Made by a program: the position numbers and the translations under genes. Under the pieces are notes generated by a model that saw only the letters and a list, made by a program, of their open reading frames with translations, ran no database searches and had not been told where the DNA came from. Shown here piece by piece: positions 6,950-23,344 of a stretch of 23,938 bases of DNA. The first letter of the stretch is position 1. Every line of letters begins with the position of its first letter. This DNA is from a virus, in IMG/VR virus record IMGVR_UViG_3300029787_000327, positions 1 through 23,938 of that record. One strand, given 5' to 3'.

Positions 6950-7417
6950 ATGAGTTATATTCCAGTATTAGGGATTGACCCAACTGAGGTACATGACACT
7001 GCTGAGTTTTTATTAGGTCAGCATGGTGCAGTGGTTGGCTCTCCAAGTAAAGTCTATAAGTATGTGCAGTATGACACTGGTTCAGCAGGAACGGCAGCGG
7101 TAGCAGGTGAAGCTTGCTATTACTATACGTTGGATGGGTACAAACTAAATCAGGTTACGTCAGATTTATCTGATTCAGTCGAGATTGGGGCAGGCATCTT
7201 GCAGGCCGTAATGACCGATGGACAATTTGGTTGGATTCAAATCAGGGGAGCAGCCACAATGACTATTGCATTAACGGCTGGAGCAGATGGAGATCCATTA
7301 ACGCCTACAGGTTCTGCTGATGGTACACTTGATGTAAGTTCTGCGGCTACTGATAATGTCTGTGCAATCGCAGGTGACATCTCAGATAAGGAAATTATCT
7401 GTACATTTCCAGACTGA
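6950..7417 (+). CDS. Putative capsid decoration protein, copy 1
   Basis: A 155-residue beta-rich, Gly/Ala/Thr-rich protein with a strong ribosome-binding site (GGAGGG at 6941-6946). It aligns along its whole length with the next gene: both begin with IPVLGIDPT, both have WIQIRG, both contain LTAGADGDPLTPTG, and both end with CAIAGDISDKEIIC plus a short tail. Position between the capsid gene and a terminator implies high expression along with the capsid. A decoration, cement or head-fibre role is inferred; the family has no function I can name. Confidence 0.8.
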   Translation: MSYIPVLGIDPTEVHDTAEFLLGQHGAVVGSPSKVYKYVQYDTGSAGTAAVAGEACYYYTLDGYKLNQVTSDLSDSVEIGAGILQAVMTDGQFGWIQIRGAATMTIALTAGADGDPLTPTGSADGTLDVSSAATDNVCAIAGDISDKEIICTFPD

Positions 7418-7432
7418 TAAAGGGGAACGGCT

Positions 7433-7924
7433 ATGAGTATAATACCAGTTTTAGGTATTGACCCAACAAAGACTTTTTCACCCACTGCTACTGATGAAAC
7501 ATCATTAAGCAAAGGTTTTCGTGTGGGTCAGCTTGGAGCAGTTATAGGTGAAACAACAAAGCTGTATAAGTTTGTTCAAAATTACAGTTTATTAACAACT
7601 GCATCAGCAGGTGACGTTTGTTATTATCAACAAAGTGATGGTTACAAAAATAACCAAGTCAGCACCGATGTTTCTTTTTCTGGAACAGAGGTTGGTGCAG
7701 GTATTATGCAAACATCAGTGACATTTAATCACTATTGTTGGATTCAAATTCGTGGCCCTGCCACTTTGTCAACAGCTTTGACAGCAGGTGCGGATGGTGA
7801 CCCTTTAACTCCTACAGGAGCAGGTGATAAAACACTCGATGTTGCTGCAAGTTTTACTGATAATATCTGTGCGATTGCAGGAGATATTTCAGATAAAGAA
7901 ATAATTTGTATGTTTCCTTACTAA
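7433..7924 (+). CDS. Putative capsid decoration protein, copy 2
   Basis: A 163-residue paralogue of the preceding gene with an 8-residue longer N-terminal region (the TFSPTATDETSLSKGF segment, about residues 14-29). Conserved blocks are at the start (IPVLGIDPT), in the middle (CYY, DGYK and NQV, then GAGI and WIQIRG) and at the C-terminus (LTAGADGDPLTPTG, CAIAGDISDKEIIC). The variable part between residues 14 and 60 is where the pair has diverged, suggesting different binding surfaces. GGGGAAC (7423-7429) is the probable ribosome-binding site. An intrinsic terminator follows directly. Confidence 0.8.
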   Translation: MSIIPVLGIDPTKTFSPTATDETSLSKGFRVGQLGAVIGETTKLYKFVQNYSLLTTASAGDVCYYQQSDGYKNNQVSTDVSFSGTEVGAGIMQTSVTFNHYCWIQIRGPATLSTALTAGADGDPLTPTGAGDKTLDVAASFTDNICAIAGDISDKEIICMFPY

Positions 7925-13413: not shown

Positions 13414-13712
13414 TAATTACGCTGTATAATTTTATCTACTATTTTTTGATATTTTTCTGCATTATATCTTTTCTGCTTGTCGTGGCTTTTGCAAGAGATA
13501 AGGAACATACAACCTGTAGATTGGCAAAACAGTTACTAGAAAATAAAACCAGAGTTTGTATCTTTGTTGGTGCGAATAATACTCAATGGAATGAATATGT
13601 GCCTATTGGTGCAGGTGAGTGTCCAAGAGAAATACGTTGTAAGTATAGGCCGAATGAAAAGCCTTTTACTTTAAAGAATGTTATTAAAAGTATTAAAGAT
13701 TCATTTAAGTAA
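13410..13712 (+). CDS. Small exported Cys-rich protein
   Basis: A 100-residue protein read from a GTG that overlaps the previous stop by four bases. The N-terminal 27 residues are strongly hydrophobic and end in VVAFA before RDKEH, which looks like a signal peptide with an A-x-A cleavage site. The mature part has four cysteines (36, 50, 71, 77), enough for two disulphides, and the motif RVCIFVGANNTQW. It should act in the periplasm or at the envelope. A lysis-partner (outer spanin-like) or superinfection role is possible; no lipobox is visible. Confidence 0.75.
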   Translation: MIITLYNFIYYFLIFFCIISFLLVVAFARDKEHTTCRLAKQLLENKTRVCIFVGANNTQWNEYVPIGAGECPREIRCKYRPNEKPFTLKNVIKSIKDSFK

Positions 13713-14185
13713 TGTTGCAGATATTATTAAACAGAGATGACTATGTTTCGGCATGGGTACAGTCTAAGCTTAAAGGCTTTTTATTTAACGACTGTAAAGC
13801 CATAGGAATTATTAAAAATCAAAAGCTTATAGCAGCCGTTGTCTATTCTAATTTAAGAGATGGACAGATAGAAGCAACAATTGTTGTTGAAGATAAAAAC
13901 TGGGCTAATAAATCAATATTGTATGCCTTGTTTGCTTACCCTTTTAAGCAATGTAACTGCCATAGAATATTAGTGACAGTTAGGGATAATAATAACAAAT
14001 CCATTAAGTTAGCCAAGAAACTTGGTTTTAAACATGAAGGGAAACTCAGACAGATGTTTCCACCACATGATGCCGTCTTACTTGGTATGTTAAGAAGTGA
14101 ATGTAAATGGTTGAATATAAAGGAAAATAAAAAATGGGAAAATCTAGACCGCAAGCTCCACCCACACCGAATCCGTCAGATTTGA
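13712..14185 (+). CDS. GNAT-family N-acetyltransferase
   Basis: A 157-residue protein with the GNAT fold signature of RimJ/RimL type. Strands run from about residue 32 to 60, the central strand HRILVTVRDNNNKSIKLAKK (84-103) leads into the motif A/B helix, and KLGFKHEGKLRQ (103-114) precedes DAVLLGMLRSECKWL (120-134). It would transfer an acetyl group from acetyl-CoA to an amine on a protein or small molecule; the substrate is unknown. Such acyltransferases occur among virion genes of marine podophages, from memory. The C-terminal 18 residues are read from the first 52 bases of the next gene in another frame and look like an add-on. Confidence 0.8.
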   Translation: MLQILLNRDDYVSAWVQSKLKGFLFNDCKAIGIIKNQKLIAAVVYSNLRDGQIEATIVVEDKNWANKSILYALFAYPFKQCNCHRILVTVRDNNNKSIKLAKKLGFKHEGKLRQMFPPHDAVLLGMLRSECKWLNIKENKKWENLDRKLHPHRIRQI

Positions 14186-18647: not shown

Positions 18648-19091
18648 ATGGACATGGAAAAACTAAGACAACAACTCGTCATAGATGAGGGTGTTAAGTA
18701 TGAATTGTATCTTGACCATTTAGGATTAAAAACCTGTGGCATAGGACATTTATGCAGAGAAGATGAGCCAGAGTTTGAAGAAACAATCGGTACTGAAATA
18801 TCTGAAGATCGTTGCACAGAACTATTTGATGAAGATATCAAGTCTGTCATTAAAGATTGCAAAAAGGTTTTTGATGATTGGGATGACATGGATGAAGAGG
18901 TGAAACAAATCTGTGCCAATATGATGTTTAATTTAGGATTACCAAGATTTAGCAAGTTCAGAAAAACCATCAATAATATTATTAGCAAAAACTATAAGAA
19001 GGCTGCTGAAGAGATGCGTGACAGCCGTTGGTATAGGCAGGTCACTAACAGAGCAGAAAGACTTGCTGTAAGAATGGAAGCAATAGCGTGA
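18648..19091 (+). CDS. T4-type lysozyme (GH24 endolysin)
   Basis: Hydrolyses the glycan strands of peptidoglycan at the end of infection. Residues 13-34 match the T4 lysozyme active-site region: Glu14, Asp23 and Thr29 fall where T4 has Glu11, Asp20 and Thr26, followed by GIGH. The C-terminal lobe has the NMMFNLGLPRFSKF stretch and SRWYRQVTNRAERLAVRME, typical of the family. The length (147) is normal. There is no signal peptide, so release must depend on a holin. An alternative ATG lies two codons downstream. The stop overlaps the GTG of the next gene by four bases. Confidence 0.95.
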   Translation: MDMEKLRQQLVIDEGVKYELYLDHLGLKTCGIGHLCREDEPEFEETIGTEISEDRCTELFDEDIKSVIKDCKKVFDDWDDMDEEVKQICANMMFNLGLPRFSKFRKTINNIISKNYKKAAEEMRDSRWYRQVTNRAERLAVRMEAIA

Positions 19092-19402
19092 CCCAGAAAA
19101 AGTTACAGAAAAAATCTGTTTTTGCAGATTACGACCAAAATTCTGACGGAATTGTAAGTGATGAGGAACTGTCACATATCAAAGAGATAAAAGAGACAGA
19201 AGCACAACTGAGAAAGCAGATCGCACAGCTTAGAATGGCTAGATACACACTTATCGGCATGGGTGTATTTACTGCTGCAATGTTTTTTATGCCAACAGAA
19301 AAAATTAATGCATTATCTGATATCAGCAACCTTCTATATATTAGTGGGGCAGGTATTGTAGGCACATACATGGGTACATCTGCATGGATGGCTAGGAAAT
19401 AG
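19088..19402 (+). CDS. EF-hand membrane protein, holin candidate
   Basis: A 104-residue protein started by a GTG that overlaps the lysozyme stop. Residues 16-27 (DQNSDGIVSDEE) form a canonical 12-residue EF-hand loop: Asp1, Asn3, Asp5, Gly6, Ile7/Val8 and Glu12 of the loop are in place. A charged helix follows (to about residue 50), then two membrane helices at about 52-68 (YTLIGMGVFTAAMFFM) and 82-100 (LLYISGAGIVGTYMGTSAWM). Coupling to the lysozyme suggests a holin or holin regulator, possibly sensing calcium. Similar EF-hand/two-helix proteins occur in marine phages, from memory. Only one EF-hand loop is present. Confidence 0.8.
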   Translation: MTQKKLQKKSVFADYDQNSDGIVSDEELSHIKEIKETEAQLRKQIAQLRMARYTLIGMGVFTAAMFFMPTEKINALSDISNLLYISGAGIVGTYMGTSAWMARK

Positions 19403-19734: not shown

Positions 19735-20190
19735 ATGATTAGTTTACTAGGCTCATTATTGGGTTTTGGAACAAGCTTTCTGCCATCTATTTTAGATTTC
19801 TTTAAACAGGCACAAGCACATAAGCAAAAACTAGAAATGATGAAAATGCAGAGTGAGTTGCTAGAAAAAAAATCTGCCTTGCGTTTACAGGAATTGGACA
19901 AACAAGCAGAAATAAAAGAAGTGGAAGGATTGTATAAACATGATGCAAGTCTGGATGGCGGTAAGTTCGTTAACGCTCTACGAAGTTCGGTTCGCCCTGT
20001 TATCACTTATATTTTTATGGGCTTATTTATTGCCGTAGAAGTTTCAATAATAGTCAAGTTTATGGAAACTGGTGGTGATTGGACAGAAGCAGTTAACCTT
20101 TTATGGTCTGATGAAGTTGCAGGATTATGGTCAGCTATCTTAGCCTTCTGGTTTGGCAACAGAGCAATATCTAAATTTCAGAGCAAGTAA
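19735..20190 (+). CDS. Holin-like membrane protein (3-TM holin family type)
   Basis: A 151-residue protein. An N-terminal hydrophobic helix (LLGSLLGFGTSFLPSILDFF, 4-23) is followed by a long charged coiled coil (about 25-70), then FVNALRSSVRPVITYIFMGL at about 78-97 leading into a second membrane helix, and a third near the end (WSAILAFWFGNRAI). This fits the holin family first described in gene transfer agents (three membrane segments with an ALxRSxRP block); that link is from memory. It would form inner-membrane lesions for lysozyme release. AAAGGA (19723-19728) is the ribosome-binding site. Confidence 0.8.
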   Translation: MISLLGSLLGFGTSFLPSILDFFKQAQAHKQKLEMMKMQSELLEKKSALRLQELDKQAEIKEVEGLYKHDASLDGGKFVNALRSSVRPVITYIFMGLFIAVEVSIIVKFMETGGDWTEAVNLLWSDEVAGLWSAILAFWFGNRAISKFQSK

Positions 20191-20487
20191 ATGAGAAAAC
20201 AAGTTAAATTATTAGCTAAACATAAATCACCTTCTGGCGGTTTAAATGCAGCAGGTAGGAAAGCTGCCAAAGCACAAGGTTCTAATTTAAAAGCACCAGT
20301 AAAGTCAGGCGATAATCCCAGAAGAGCAAGTTTTCTCGCAAGAATGGGTGCAGGTCGTGGCTCTGATTACAAAGATGGAAAGCCTACAAGAAAGTTACTG
20401 GCACTCCGAAAATGGGGAGCTAGTTCATCTGCTGATGCAATTAAAAAAGCTAAAGCAATATCTAAACGCAACAAAAAGAAAGGTTAA
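20191..20487 (+). CDS. Basic small protein (DUF6321-like)
   Basis: A 98-residue protein with roughly 28 Lys/Arg against 4 Asp. The start HKSPSGGLNAAGRKAAKAQG (11-30), then KSGDNPRRASFLARMG and DGKPTRKLLALRKWGASS, look like a family of unknown function in cyanophages and other marine phages, which I recall as DUF6321. The C-terminus is SKRNKKKG. It starts directly after the holin stop (TAA then ATG) and leads a row of four basic genes. Binding to nucleic acid is likely from charge; the role is unknown. Confidence 0.8.
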   Translation: MRKQVKLLAKHKSPSGGLNAAGRKAAKAQGSNLKAPVKSGDNPRRASFLARMGAGRGSDYKDGKPTRKLLALRKWGASSSADAIKKAKAISKRNKKKG

Positions 20488-20491
20488 CATT

Positions 20492-20581
20492 ATGCCAATG
20501 GGTAAAGGAACTTATGGTTCTAAAAGAGGTAGACCACCAATGAAGAAGACAAAGAAAAAAACTAAGAAGGTGAAAAAATAA
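20492..20581 (+). CDS. 29-residue AT-hook-like basic peptide
   Basis: ATG at 20492 with AAGAAAGG just upstream opens a 29-residue peptide. The segment KRGRPPMKK (11-19) has the Arg-Gly-Arg-Pro core and flanking basic residues of an AT-hook, which binds the minor groove of AT-rich DNA. The rest is almost only Lys with some Thr/Val; 13 of 29 residues are Lys/Arg and none is acidic. Its stop overlaps the next ATG by one base. A longer open frame reaches upstream to 20348 inside the previous gene, but the ribosome-binding site and packing favour this start. Confidence 0.65.
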   Translation: MPMGKGTYGSKRGRPPMKKTKKKTKKVKK

Positions 20582-20748
20582 TGGCTAAAAGACCTGGACT
20601 ATACGCAAACATTCATGCGAAAAGAAAAAGGATTGCCGCAGGTTCTAAAGAAAAAATGCGTAAAGCAGGAACAAAAGGCAGACCCACAGCAGCAGCTTTT
20701 AAACAGGCAGCAAAGACTGCTAAGAAGCCTAAGAAGAAAGGCAAATAA
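20581..20748 (+). CDS. 55-residue basic phage protein
   Basis: An ATG overlapping the previous stop (TAATG) opens a peptide starting MAKRPGLYANIHAKRKRIAA, then SKEKMRKAGTKGRPTAAAFK, and ending in a Lys-rich tail. 20 of 55 residues are Lys/Arg, with one Glu. KGRPT resembles a degenerate AT-hook core. I recall the GLYANIHAKRKRIAAGS block as conserved in small proteins of marine phages, without known function. Overlaps on both sides indicate one translational unit with its neighbours. Confidence 0.75.
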   Translation: MAKRPGLYANIHAKRKRIAAGSKEKMRKAGTKGRPTAAAFKQAAKTAKKPKKKGK

Positions 20749-20864
20749 TGCCTTTTAGTAAGTACTCACCTAAACAGAAAAAGCTTGCCAGAGTAGCAGC
20801 ACCCAGAACTAAAATCACTAGTGCAGATTTTAAGAAGATAAAAAAGAAGAAGAAAAAAAAGTAG
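20748..20864 (+). CDS. 38-residue basic phage protein with poly-Lys tail
   Basis: An ATG overlapping the previous stop opens a peptide MPFSKYSPKQKKLARVAAPR followed by TKITSADFKK and a run of lysines to the stop. 16 of 38 residues are Lys/Arg. The YSPKQKKLARVA...ITSADF pattern recalls a small conserved phage family of unknown function, from memory. It is the last gene before the attachment region and is followed after 5 bases by a terminator-like hairpin. Confidence 0.75.
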   Translation: MPFSKYSPKQKKLARVAAPRTKITSADFKKIKKKKKKK

Positions 20865-20951: not shown

Positions 20952-20999
20952 GTTGAAATGCTAAATAATTGTTTTTATTATCAAAATCAGGCAGAAGTC

Positions 21000-21027
21000 A
21001 CGAGTTCAAGTCTCGTCACTCTCGCCA
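21000..21027 (+). other. attP: tRNA 3'-end fragment: phage attachment core (attP)
   Basis: ACGAG (21000-21004), loop TTCAAGT (21005-21011) and CTCGT (21012-21016) form a perfect 5-bp T-arm with the invariant TTC. It is followed by a 7-base acceptor strand CACTCTC (21017-21023), discriminator G and encoded CCA (21025-21027). No matching 5' acceptor half (GAGAGTG) or D-arm is upstream, so this is only the 3' part of a tRNA. Temperate phages carry such fragments so that integration restores the host tRNA. Bases upstream (about 20988-20999) may also be tRNA-like. I could not identify the tRNA. Confidence 0.85.
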
Positions 21028-21164
21028 TATCCTATTATTTTCAGACCCTATGTTTTCTGCCAGTTTTTAAGGCACAGCAAGGGTTTGAAACATATCTTAA
21101 TAAATATTTCCCCATAACACTACAATATCATTCCAACGCATTTCCAACTAATTTACAATTAAAA

Positions 21165-21287: not shown

Positions 21288-21935
21288 ATGAAAGTATTAA
21301 TAGGATGTGAAACAAGCGGTGTAGTTAGGGAGGCTTTTTTAAATGAAGGTCACGATGCCTGGTCATGTGATGTATTGCCCTCAGACATACCTACAAACAG
21401 ACACATTCAAGATGATGTTAGAAATGTTCTTGAAATGGAAAAATGGGATTTGCTCATGGTTGCTCATCCCCCATGTACAAGGCTCTGTAATTCTGGTGTT
21501 AGATGGCTGCATAAAGCACCACCAGGAAAAACACTAGAACAAATGTGGAAAGAGTTAGATGAGGGTGCAGCTTTGTTTTCAGATTTATGGAACGCTGATG
21601 TACCTAGAATAGCAGTTGAAAATCCTGTGATGCACAAACACGCCAAACAAAGAATCTTAAATTTTAAAGATTTCTCACAAAGTGTACAACCTTATCAATT
21701 TGGACATGATATTGATGGCCCTGATAATGTTACTAAACGTACTTGTTTATGGCTTAAAAATTTACCAAAGCTTGTACCAACTGGTTCTTTGGATGGTTCA
21801 ACTGCAAGAGATGAAATACACAAAGCATCACCAAGTCCAGATAGATGGAAAATAAGATCAAAATTTTTTCCAGGCCTTGCAAAAGCAATGGCAACACAAT
21901 GGGGCAATTATGCCCTCAATACATTAGCAGCATAA
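21288..21935 (+). CDS. Cytosine-C5 DNA methyltransferase-like protein
   Basis: A 215-residue protein. IGCETSGVVREAF (5-17) resembles the SAM-binding motif I, AHPPCTRLCNSGVRWL (59-74) carries the Pro-Cys of motif IV, and AVENP (109-113) corresponds to motif VI, with Pro where classical enzymes have Val. The last 100 residues include KRTCLWLKNLP and SKFFPGLAKAMATQWGNY. It is much shorter than restriction-system C5 methylases and lacks room for a normal target-recognition domain. Related short proteins are common in phages and their substrate is unclear. The start at 21288 has the GGAGAATGAC leader; the longer frame from 20958 would read through the attachment site. Confidence 0.75.
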   Translation: MKVLIGCETSGVVREAFLNEGHDAWSCDVLPSDIPTNRHIQDDVRNVLEMEKWDLLMVAHPPCTRLCNSGVRWLHKAPPGKTLEQMWKELDEGAALFSDLWNADVPRIAVENPVMHKHAKQRILNFKDFSQSVQPYQFGHDIDGPDNVTKRTCLWLKNLPKLVPTGSLDGSTARDEIHKASPSPDRWKIRSKFFPGLAKAMATQWGNYALNTLAA

Positions 21936-22129: not shown

Positions 22130-23344
22130 ATGGATATTAAAGTTAATTATTTAAAATCAAGAAAACTTTATTATGCGACTGTCAAAGATGGCAGTAAGTA
22201 TGGCAGAAAGGTTTATGCTACAACACCAGAATTTGTGAAACAAAAGCTACAAGGTTTCTGGTCTATGCCTACTAAGCAAAACAAAGATTTAATGACAGTG
22301 GCAGACTTTACAAAAGGTTATCTGTTGCACATGGAGAAAAGAACATTAGGCAAGATTGATGGTGAAAAAAGAATTAGAATACAATCTTTTGAAACTTATG
22401 AATTGCATTATAAAAATATATGGAACTTTGATGATGAAGAGTATGCTAAAGGTATTGGTAGACGTATTTATATCAATGGTAAAAAGATTATTGATTATAA
22501 TGTTACTCAGGTAAATGATACTTTTCTCAAAGAGTTAGTCAATCAGATTGAGGTTAACTTTAACACCCACAGTTCTAAATATAAGCACTCTATCTTTGCA
22601 AGCTTTAAAAGTGGTTTGTTATGGTTGCACAAGCAAAACAGAGAACTATACCCATTGTTAGACGTTAGAGGCTTTTCTATACCGCTTGTAAAGAAAGAAG
22701 CATTTGTGCCTAAGAGATTAGATGCACAGCTTGTTCTTAGAACTGTTGACCAGGTATGCAAGGAAAAGTATGCAATCTATGTTCATCTCTGTGCAAATGG
22801 TTTAAGAGCATCTGAAGCAAATGGTTTAAAGCCATCTGACTTTGATCCAACTAATAAAACTTTTCATGTGCAAAGAACTGTAGACAGATCAAGAAATGTT
22901 ATTGCTACAGAAACTGGCTATGAATTATCGACTAAAACTCTGTCATCTAACAGAAAACTACCTCTTGGATCAGAACTAGCCACAAGGATTAGAAAGTTTA
23001 TTATGGCTAACCCTAACTTAGAATGGATGTTTCAATCAGAGCAAAAGTATGATGGTAAGCCTATCATTCAGCATAATTTGGCTAAGTTTGGTTTACACAA
23101 GGCATTAAAGCATCTTAAATCCAAAGGGCAAAATGTAGAGTGGAAAGGTGCAATGCATGGCCTTAGACACTATTATGGCTCTTTGTTATTGGCTGAAGCT
23201 GCTAAACTTGGTAGAAACCCAACATGGGTGCAGAAGAGGCTAGGACATAGCAATTTGCAAACAACTCTTGGCATCTACTCACATGATATTGACGAAGATA
23301 ACCAAGAGTTAAACAATGAAGTAGAAAGAAGATTAAATGGTTAA
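22130..23344 (+). CDS. int: Tyrosine-family site-specific integrase
   Basis: A 404-residue recombinase that would join attP to a tRNA gene in the host. All catalytic residues are visible: Arg226 in GLRASEANGL, Lys269 in STKTLSSNRKLPL, His343 and Arg346 in MHGLRHYYGS, His373 in LGHSNLQTT and the nucleophile Tyr383 in GIYSH. Residues 1-45 look like an arm-binding domain (NYLKSRKLYYATVKDGSKYG), and 50-190 form the core-binding domain. Its length and three-domain layout are those of lambda-type integrases. The gene lies 1.1 kb right of the tRNA-fragment core, in the same operon as the methylase-like gene, and overlaps the next gene by 8 bases. Confidence 0.95.
   Translation: MDIKVNYLKSRKLYYATVKDGSKYGRKVYATTPEFVKQKLQGFWSMPTKQNKDLMTVADFTKGYLLHMEKRTLGKIDGEKRIRIQSFETYELHYKNIWNFDDEEYAKGIGRRIYINGKKIIDYNVTQVNDTFLKELVNQIEVNFNTHSSKYKHSIFASFKSGLLWLHKQNRELYPLLDVRGFSIPLVKKEAFVPKRLDAQLVLRTVDQVCKEKYAIYVHLCANGLRASEANGLKPSDFDPTNKTFHVQRTVDRSRNVIATETGYELSTKTLSSNRKLPLGSELATRIRKFIMANPNLEWMFQSEQKYDGKPIIQHNLAKFGLHKALKHLKSKGQNVEWKGAMHGLRHYYGSLLLAEAAKLGRNPTWVQKRLGHSNLQTTLGIYSHDIDEDNQELNNEVERRLNG

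Follow-up and report, generated by a model that had tools for sequence, protein, structure and literature searches.

Four consecutive genes at positions 20191-20864 of a viral record encode very short, lysine-rich proteins. We asked whether they are real genes and what such proteins would do for a phage. The record (IMGVR_UViG_3300029787_000327) was analysed over a stretch of 23,938 nucleotides, called the window below. An initial annotation had described the row as a possible histone-like kit that includes AT-hook peptides.

All four open reading frames lie on the plus strand and encode proteins of 98 residues (20191..20487, family A), 29 residues (20492..20581, family B), 55 residues (20581..20748, family D) and 38 residues (20748..20864, family E). 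The TAA of the upstream gene ends at 20190 and the ATG of the 98-residue gene begins at 20191. The gap between the 98- and 29-residue genes is 4 nt, and the 29/55 and 55/38 pairs overlap by 1 nt each (TAATG). The location, lengths and coupling given in the initial annotation were reproduced, as was its description of the products as rich in Lys and Arg and poor in acidic residues. In the 98-, 29-, 55- and 38-residue proteins, Lys and Arg make up 28.6%, 44.8%, 36.4% and 42.1% of the residues, acidic residues number 4, 0, 1 and 1, and net charges are +24, +13, +19 and +15 (sum +71). The pI values range from 11.1 to 11.9. In 28 further tabulated genes of the window, Lys plus Arg is 3-19%.

Basic composition by itself was a weak argument against chance. 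We counted open reading frames of at least 25 residues with at least 28% Lys plus Arg and at most 5% Asp plus Glu, including out-of-frame ones and with mechanically assigned starts. Counted in this way, shuffled windows held a mean of 1.1 and a maximum of 4, and the real window held 5, which is only moderately unusual. The ratios of non-synonymous to synonymous differences per site are 0.07-0.27 across the 98-, 55- and 38-residue genes, indicating translated genes under purifying selection; for the 29-residue gene the ratio is 0.47, from few sites. Chance is excluded by the conservation of the families, namely the two catalogued ones described below (DUF6321 and phrog_16028), the relatives of the 29- and 38-residue proteins (at least 309 and at least 561 confirmed in viral contigs, respectively) and these low ratios. 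The charge of the cassette proteins drops as the GC content of the locus rises. AT-rich codons as the cause of the basic character were mostly rejected, since Lys plus Arg is still 22-31% in loci above 48% GC.

The 98-residue protein matches Pfam DUF6321 (PF19846) with E = 2.9e-17 and 63.5 bits against a gathering cut-off of 28.5. The match covers residues 11-75 (nt 20221-20415) and model positions 1-72 of 72, and is followed by a basic C-terminal helix. The protein also matches phrog_4689. The family is represented in 455 phage records, and our protein is a full-length DUF6321 member with the motifs SPSGGL..GR, RR.SF.AR and PTR..L..W. It differs from cyanophage members, which carry a Cys pair (SFCARM ... 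KWNC) where the clade of the window has Leu and Gly, and this clade adds the C-terminal helix. Among sampled members, Cys follows SF in those ending in the Cys of W.C, and members with Leu or Ala there do not have the W.C Cys. This suggests that the two Cys residues act as a pair, in a sample that is small and related by descent. The predicted DUF6321 model has four helices (mean pLDDT 87.9, pTM 0.66). It had no fold match in the PDB at E<1, and no significant PDB sequence match was found for the 98- or 55-residue families; the sole DUF6321 match at E<1 among PDB sequences was ribosomal uL2 (E = 0.46, not significant). No paper in the literature that we searched mentions DUF6321.

The 55-residue protein (GLYANIHAKRKRIAAGS.EKMRK.G.KG.PT motif) matches phrog_16028 with E = 9.8e-24, residues 4-50 aligning to positions 3-49 of the 50-position profile. 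Like DUF6321, this is an already catalogued family without an assigned function. Over residues 1-36, identity is 75-92% in most cyanophage, pelagiphage and some roseophage matches, and falls to about 64% in weaker ones. The predicted structure consists of two helices at low confidence. An AT-hook variant, KGRP, had been read in this protein. We rejected it because KGRP occurs in 3 of 37 aligned relatives (the window, L005 and L050), and the rest mostly have KGAP, KAAP or similar at this place. Members of the family in CRP-810 (gp49; L089, 5001-5159), S-B28 (H86) and WH11-B (H84) carry the label "ribonucleotide reductase A subunit", which looks like a spreading misannotation. The 38-residue protein (MPFSKYSPKQKKLARVAAPRTKITSADFKK, then a Lys tail) had no match at a useful score in Pfam, PHROGs or NCBIfam. 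Its relative from L005 had no match among 50,697 deposited phage records.

The 29-residue protein (MPMGKGTYGSKRGRPP, then a Lys tail) likewise had no useful match in Pfam, PHROGs or NCBIfam. A relative of it has 31 matching records in deposited phages, in most of which the gene is unannotated, and standard virion proteomics would therefore miss the product. Short family-B genes, mostly unannotated, are seen in the P-SCSP1, P-GSP1, SS120-1 and Jormungand records (H222-H250). Its RGRP core, at residues 12-15 (20525..20536, plus strand), had been called an AT-hook. To avoid circularity, the DNA pattern with which we searched viral contigs covered residues 1-9 only. GRP was present at residues 13-15 in 74 of 74 unique family-B peptides, followed by P, K, S or A and then a Lys-rich tail. 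At residue 12, Arg, Lys and Val are similarly frequent, with Val at about 30%. Because GRP is invariant in a search that did not use it, the Gly-Arg-Pro core is, at the level of sequence, a real constraint of the kind a minor-groove binder would need, and the leading Arg of classical AT-hooks is not constrained. The Pfam AT-hook model had no match at E≤10 in six family members; the motif is so short that hmmscan hardly detects it. Overall, the AT-hook reading splits, with GRP fixed in the 29-residue family and KGRP unconserved in the 55-residue one.

We ran nine family profiles (A, DUF6321; B, the 29-residue family; C; D, the 55-residue family; E, the 38-residue family; F; G, DUF5824; H; I) over 383 loci. 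All 947 of 947 family members lie on the majority strand of their own locus. Consecutive family pairs are at most 60 nt apart in 364 of 587 cases, with a median gap of -1, and adjacent genes often overlap by 1-4 nt. Orders differ among cassettes, for example B-E~I-A, C-E~G-A and A~C-D-E. Single reading frames fuse B-C, E-H, H-I and A-I, and phrog_11180, which matches D as well as A, is a D-A fusion. The four genes do not always occur together: among 80 loci found with E, A is present in 54, I in 39, B in 28 and C in 15. A fixed four-gene kit was rejected, as the families reassort among loci. The closest loci, L002-L005, carry other family members at the same site behind the holin-like gene. 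Judged by these profiles, the four genes of this marine-type phage were drawn from a pool of at least nine small basic families. A cellular origin was also rejected: two conserved peptides, run against 84,980 species genomes, produced only 10 matches, all on MAG contigs. No cassette family was present in the first 40 kb of the Prochlorococcus siphovirus PSS2. As far as our tools reach, two uncatalogued micro-protein families, the cassette with its fusions, the invariance of GRP and the connection to published virion proteomes are new.

We then recorded by PHROG the nearest larger gene on each side of the cassettes, as raw counts without a background rate for random phage genes. Upstream, two terminase small subunit families were matched in 10/110 and 9/110 cases, which may be the same members; head assembly followed with 7, head scaffolding with 6, holin with 5 and endolysin with 4. 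Downstream, terminase large subunit had 9 and 5, which may overlap, portal and head-tail adaptor had 5 each, and capsid and integrase genes were also seen. Hundreds of uncultured phages carry members of the set, mostly next to terminase, scaffold, capsid, portal or lysis genes. In HTVC022P, B-D-A lies between the scaffold and capsid genes, and in S-TIP37, A-D lies between the capsid assembly (scaffold) gene and the capsid gene. P-SCSP1d has B-A-D after the capsid gene and before the tail tube gene, and P-SCSP1u has the same order B-A-D. The capsid and tail of P-SCSP1u have reportedly been solved by cryo-EM. Gp30-32 of HTVC022P are not named in the main text of the report on its late expression. 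In the window, the last gene before the cassette (19735..20190, plus strand) encodes a holin-like membrane protein of phrog_6637, a family without assigned function. It has a near-identical counterpart in L002 and a weak Pfam match to GTA_holin_3TM, below the cut-off. Holin or endolysin genes can likewise precede the arrays, as in the window, which counts against a packaging role.

Other genes of the window were noted on the way. The product of a gene at 19088-19402, beside the lysozyme gene, is small and has a single EF-hand-like loop (DYDQNSDGIVSDEEL) and what look like hydrophobic segments; its EF-hand matches are weak and below the cut-off. Two adjacent genes after the major capsid gene (6950-7417 and 7433-7924) have similar products, with VLGIDPT and ICAIAGDISDKEIIC.FP motifs in common, and are a tandem duplication, perhaps of a head decoration protein. 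An Acyl-CoA N-acyltransferase (13712-14185; phrog_4470, E = 3e-38) lies within the structural gene block. At 20990-21028, alone in the intergenic region before a tyrosine integrase gene (22130-23344), the sequence AGAAGTCACGAGTTCAAGTCTCGTCACTCTCGCCA resembles the 3' end of a tRNA gene, with a T-arm and an encoded CCA. ARAGORN found no complete tRNA there. The element is likely an attP core, and with the integrase gene behind it the phage is probably temperate. A member of the phage DNA methyltransferase family phrog_757 (21291-21935, E = 1e-56) is encoded between this att-like site and the integrase.

Published virion proteomes bear on DUF6321. In T4-like cyanophages the domain forms the C-terminus of a larger protein, whose gene usually lies between the two terminase genes. 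S-CREM2 gp137, which scores 40.8 bits against the DUF6321 cut-off of 28.5, was detected in the virion proteome with 4 unique peptides and 4.1% coverage (Table 3, PMC10665884). S-SCSM1 ORF29 has DUF6321 at its C-terminus (E = 9e-23) and was deposited as "virion protein", a label that we infer stems from mass spectrometry; the S-SCSM1 publication gives 45 proteins by this method (PMC9602691). The reported presence of DUF6321 proteins in these two virions supports a virion or packaging role. In S-SZBM1, translation placed the domain in gene 192 (165 residues), and genes 190 and 194 were rejected as candidates. Gene 192 is absent among the 30 proteins detected in S-SZBM1 (PMC9146016). The packaging or virion role put forward in the initial annotation is therefore supported in part, by the late head and packaging neighbourhood in many unrelated phages and by two proteomes, and the S-SZBM1 result counts against it. 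CsCl-purified virions can retain sticky basic contaminants. The T4-like cyanophage proteins also hold other short Cys-bearing basic modules (L384, 42662-44215; L086, 658-3207; L090, 2873-4204), such as KWF.GSKSKDGK.GWVNV..GGTCASD and DACY.KVKSRYSVWPSAYASG.LV.CRK, and DUF6321 may be one among several of these.

The explanation we favour, giving it slightly less than an even chance, is that these are late-made genome-binding proteins that enter the head or help to fill it. The row would be this phage's version of a cassette, spread across phages, of very small basic nucleic-acid binders acting at genome packaging. Judging from gene order and start-stop overlap, the four proteins would be translated together from the end of the late transcript. 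The 29-residue protein could insert its invariant Gly-Arg-Pro into the DNA minor groove, as its motif suggests, with the Lys tail on the phosphates; the frequent Val ahead of GRP and the missing Pfam AT-hook match count against this explanation. The DUF6321 protein, a predicted small helical domain, would become part of the virion; the published mass spectrometry behind this step concerns only large relatives that contain DUF6321, from T4-like cyanophages. The 55- and 38-residue proteins may contribute basic helices and tails. The set would join the genome or the head interior at packaging and probably travel with the DNA.

The histone-like bulk condensation of the initial annotation fits poorly with the stoichiometry. 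The 24 kb of the window carry 47,876 phosphates, and at +71 per set, balancing the window alone would take about 670 complete sets. A local or structural role is therefore more plausible than bulk neutralisation, which is unlikely: the set would more probably pin or order particular stretches of DNA, or line the head or portal. No HU, IHF, H-NS or histone fold or profile was found in Pfam, NCBIfam or PHROGs. Cations and polyamines are believed to balance the packaged DNA of tailed phages. A 2012 study sees no evidence that basic proteins contribute much, and the lack of precedent for DNA-neutralising basic proteins in tailed phages counts against our favoured explanation (PMC3281028).

The same proteins could instead act in the cell as nucleoid-binding or silencing factors with an H-NS/Lsr2-like Gly-Arg core, compacting the DNA of host or phage during late infection or lysogeny. 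We consider this unlikely, though a serious contender. The xGRP core resembles minor-groove motifs, and the integrase gene and tRNA-like att site lie just downstream, a typical place for accessory genes in temperate phages. Loci with B also have a lower GC content than DUF6321 loci that lack it (0.405 vs 0.457), a difference that the locus-finding method may confound. However, the cassettes sit within head and packaging blocks, also in phages not known to integrate, and DUF6321 proteins are present in virions. The neighbouring head and packaging genes also speak against RNA- or ribosome-binding helpers of late translation, which we regard as improbable. Small Lys-rich, Gly-containing proteins do resemble ribosomal protein tails, and uL2 gave the non-significant match above, but none of the families matches any ribosomal protein.

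In HTVC022P and S-TIP37 the genes stand between those for scaffold and capsid, and head scaffolding and head assembly families occur upstream of cassettes. This would suit helpers of capsid assembly or of the scaffold, binding to head proteins by charge and without a specific function on DNA. The invariant GRP core and the near-absence of acidic residues are left unexplained by such helpers, and we give them little credence. That position in T7-like phages also argues against cationic lysis peptides rupturing the outer membrane, as phage phiKT disruptin is reported to do. The holin-like gene stands directly before the cassette in the window phage and in L002-L005, and a lysozyme gene lies 1.1 kb upstream, yet hydrophobic content, Ala excluded, is just 13-21%, and endolysins and holins are a minority among the neighbours. 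A lytic function is very improbable.

Genome binding at packaging remains our preferred reading. Since one cassette protein type was detected in purified particles, the proteins may coat or organise viral DNA. More tentatively, and with rather low expectation, combinatorial micro-proteins may coat or organise the packaged genome in many uncultured marine and freshwater tailed phages, a protein-based layer of a kind undescribed in tailed phages. The set includes two families absent from Pfam and PHROGs, one of them also from the 50,697 deposited phage genomes. A widespread basic cassette beside packaging genes makes the cation and polyamine view testable in the cultured phages P-SCSP1u and HTVC022P.

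Three known systems can be compared. The gp114-type proteins of T4-like cyanophages (Syn9 gp114, T4 GC0119 in the S-E7 record, S-CREM2 gp137, S-SCSM1 ORF29) share the C-terminal DUF6321; in most of the genomes that we looked at, their genes lie between those of the small and large terminase subunits, and two of the proteins have been reported from virions. They are multi-module proteins of 443-849 residues, in contrast to the free proteins of 70-100 residues. The AT-hook and xGR motifs of the HMGA, Lsr2 and H-NS type are matched by the invariant Gly-Arg-Pro in a Lys-rich peptide, whereas the 29-residue family has a variable first core Arg, a conserved MP.GKGTYG N-terminus and no Pfam AT-hook match. 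Finally, although ours are mini-proteins from tailed phages and no sequence relation is claimed, they resemble basic proteins of eukaryotic dsDNA viruses (PBCV-1 A278L/A282L, baculovirus P6.9, ascovirus P64), which are small or basic, virion-linked and proposed to bind the packaged genome.
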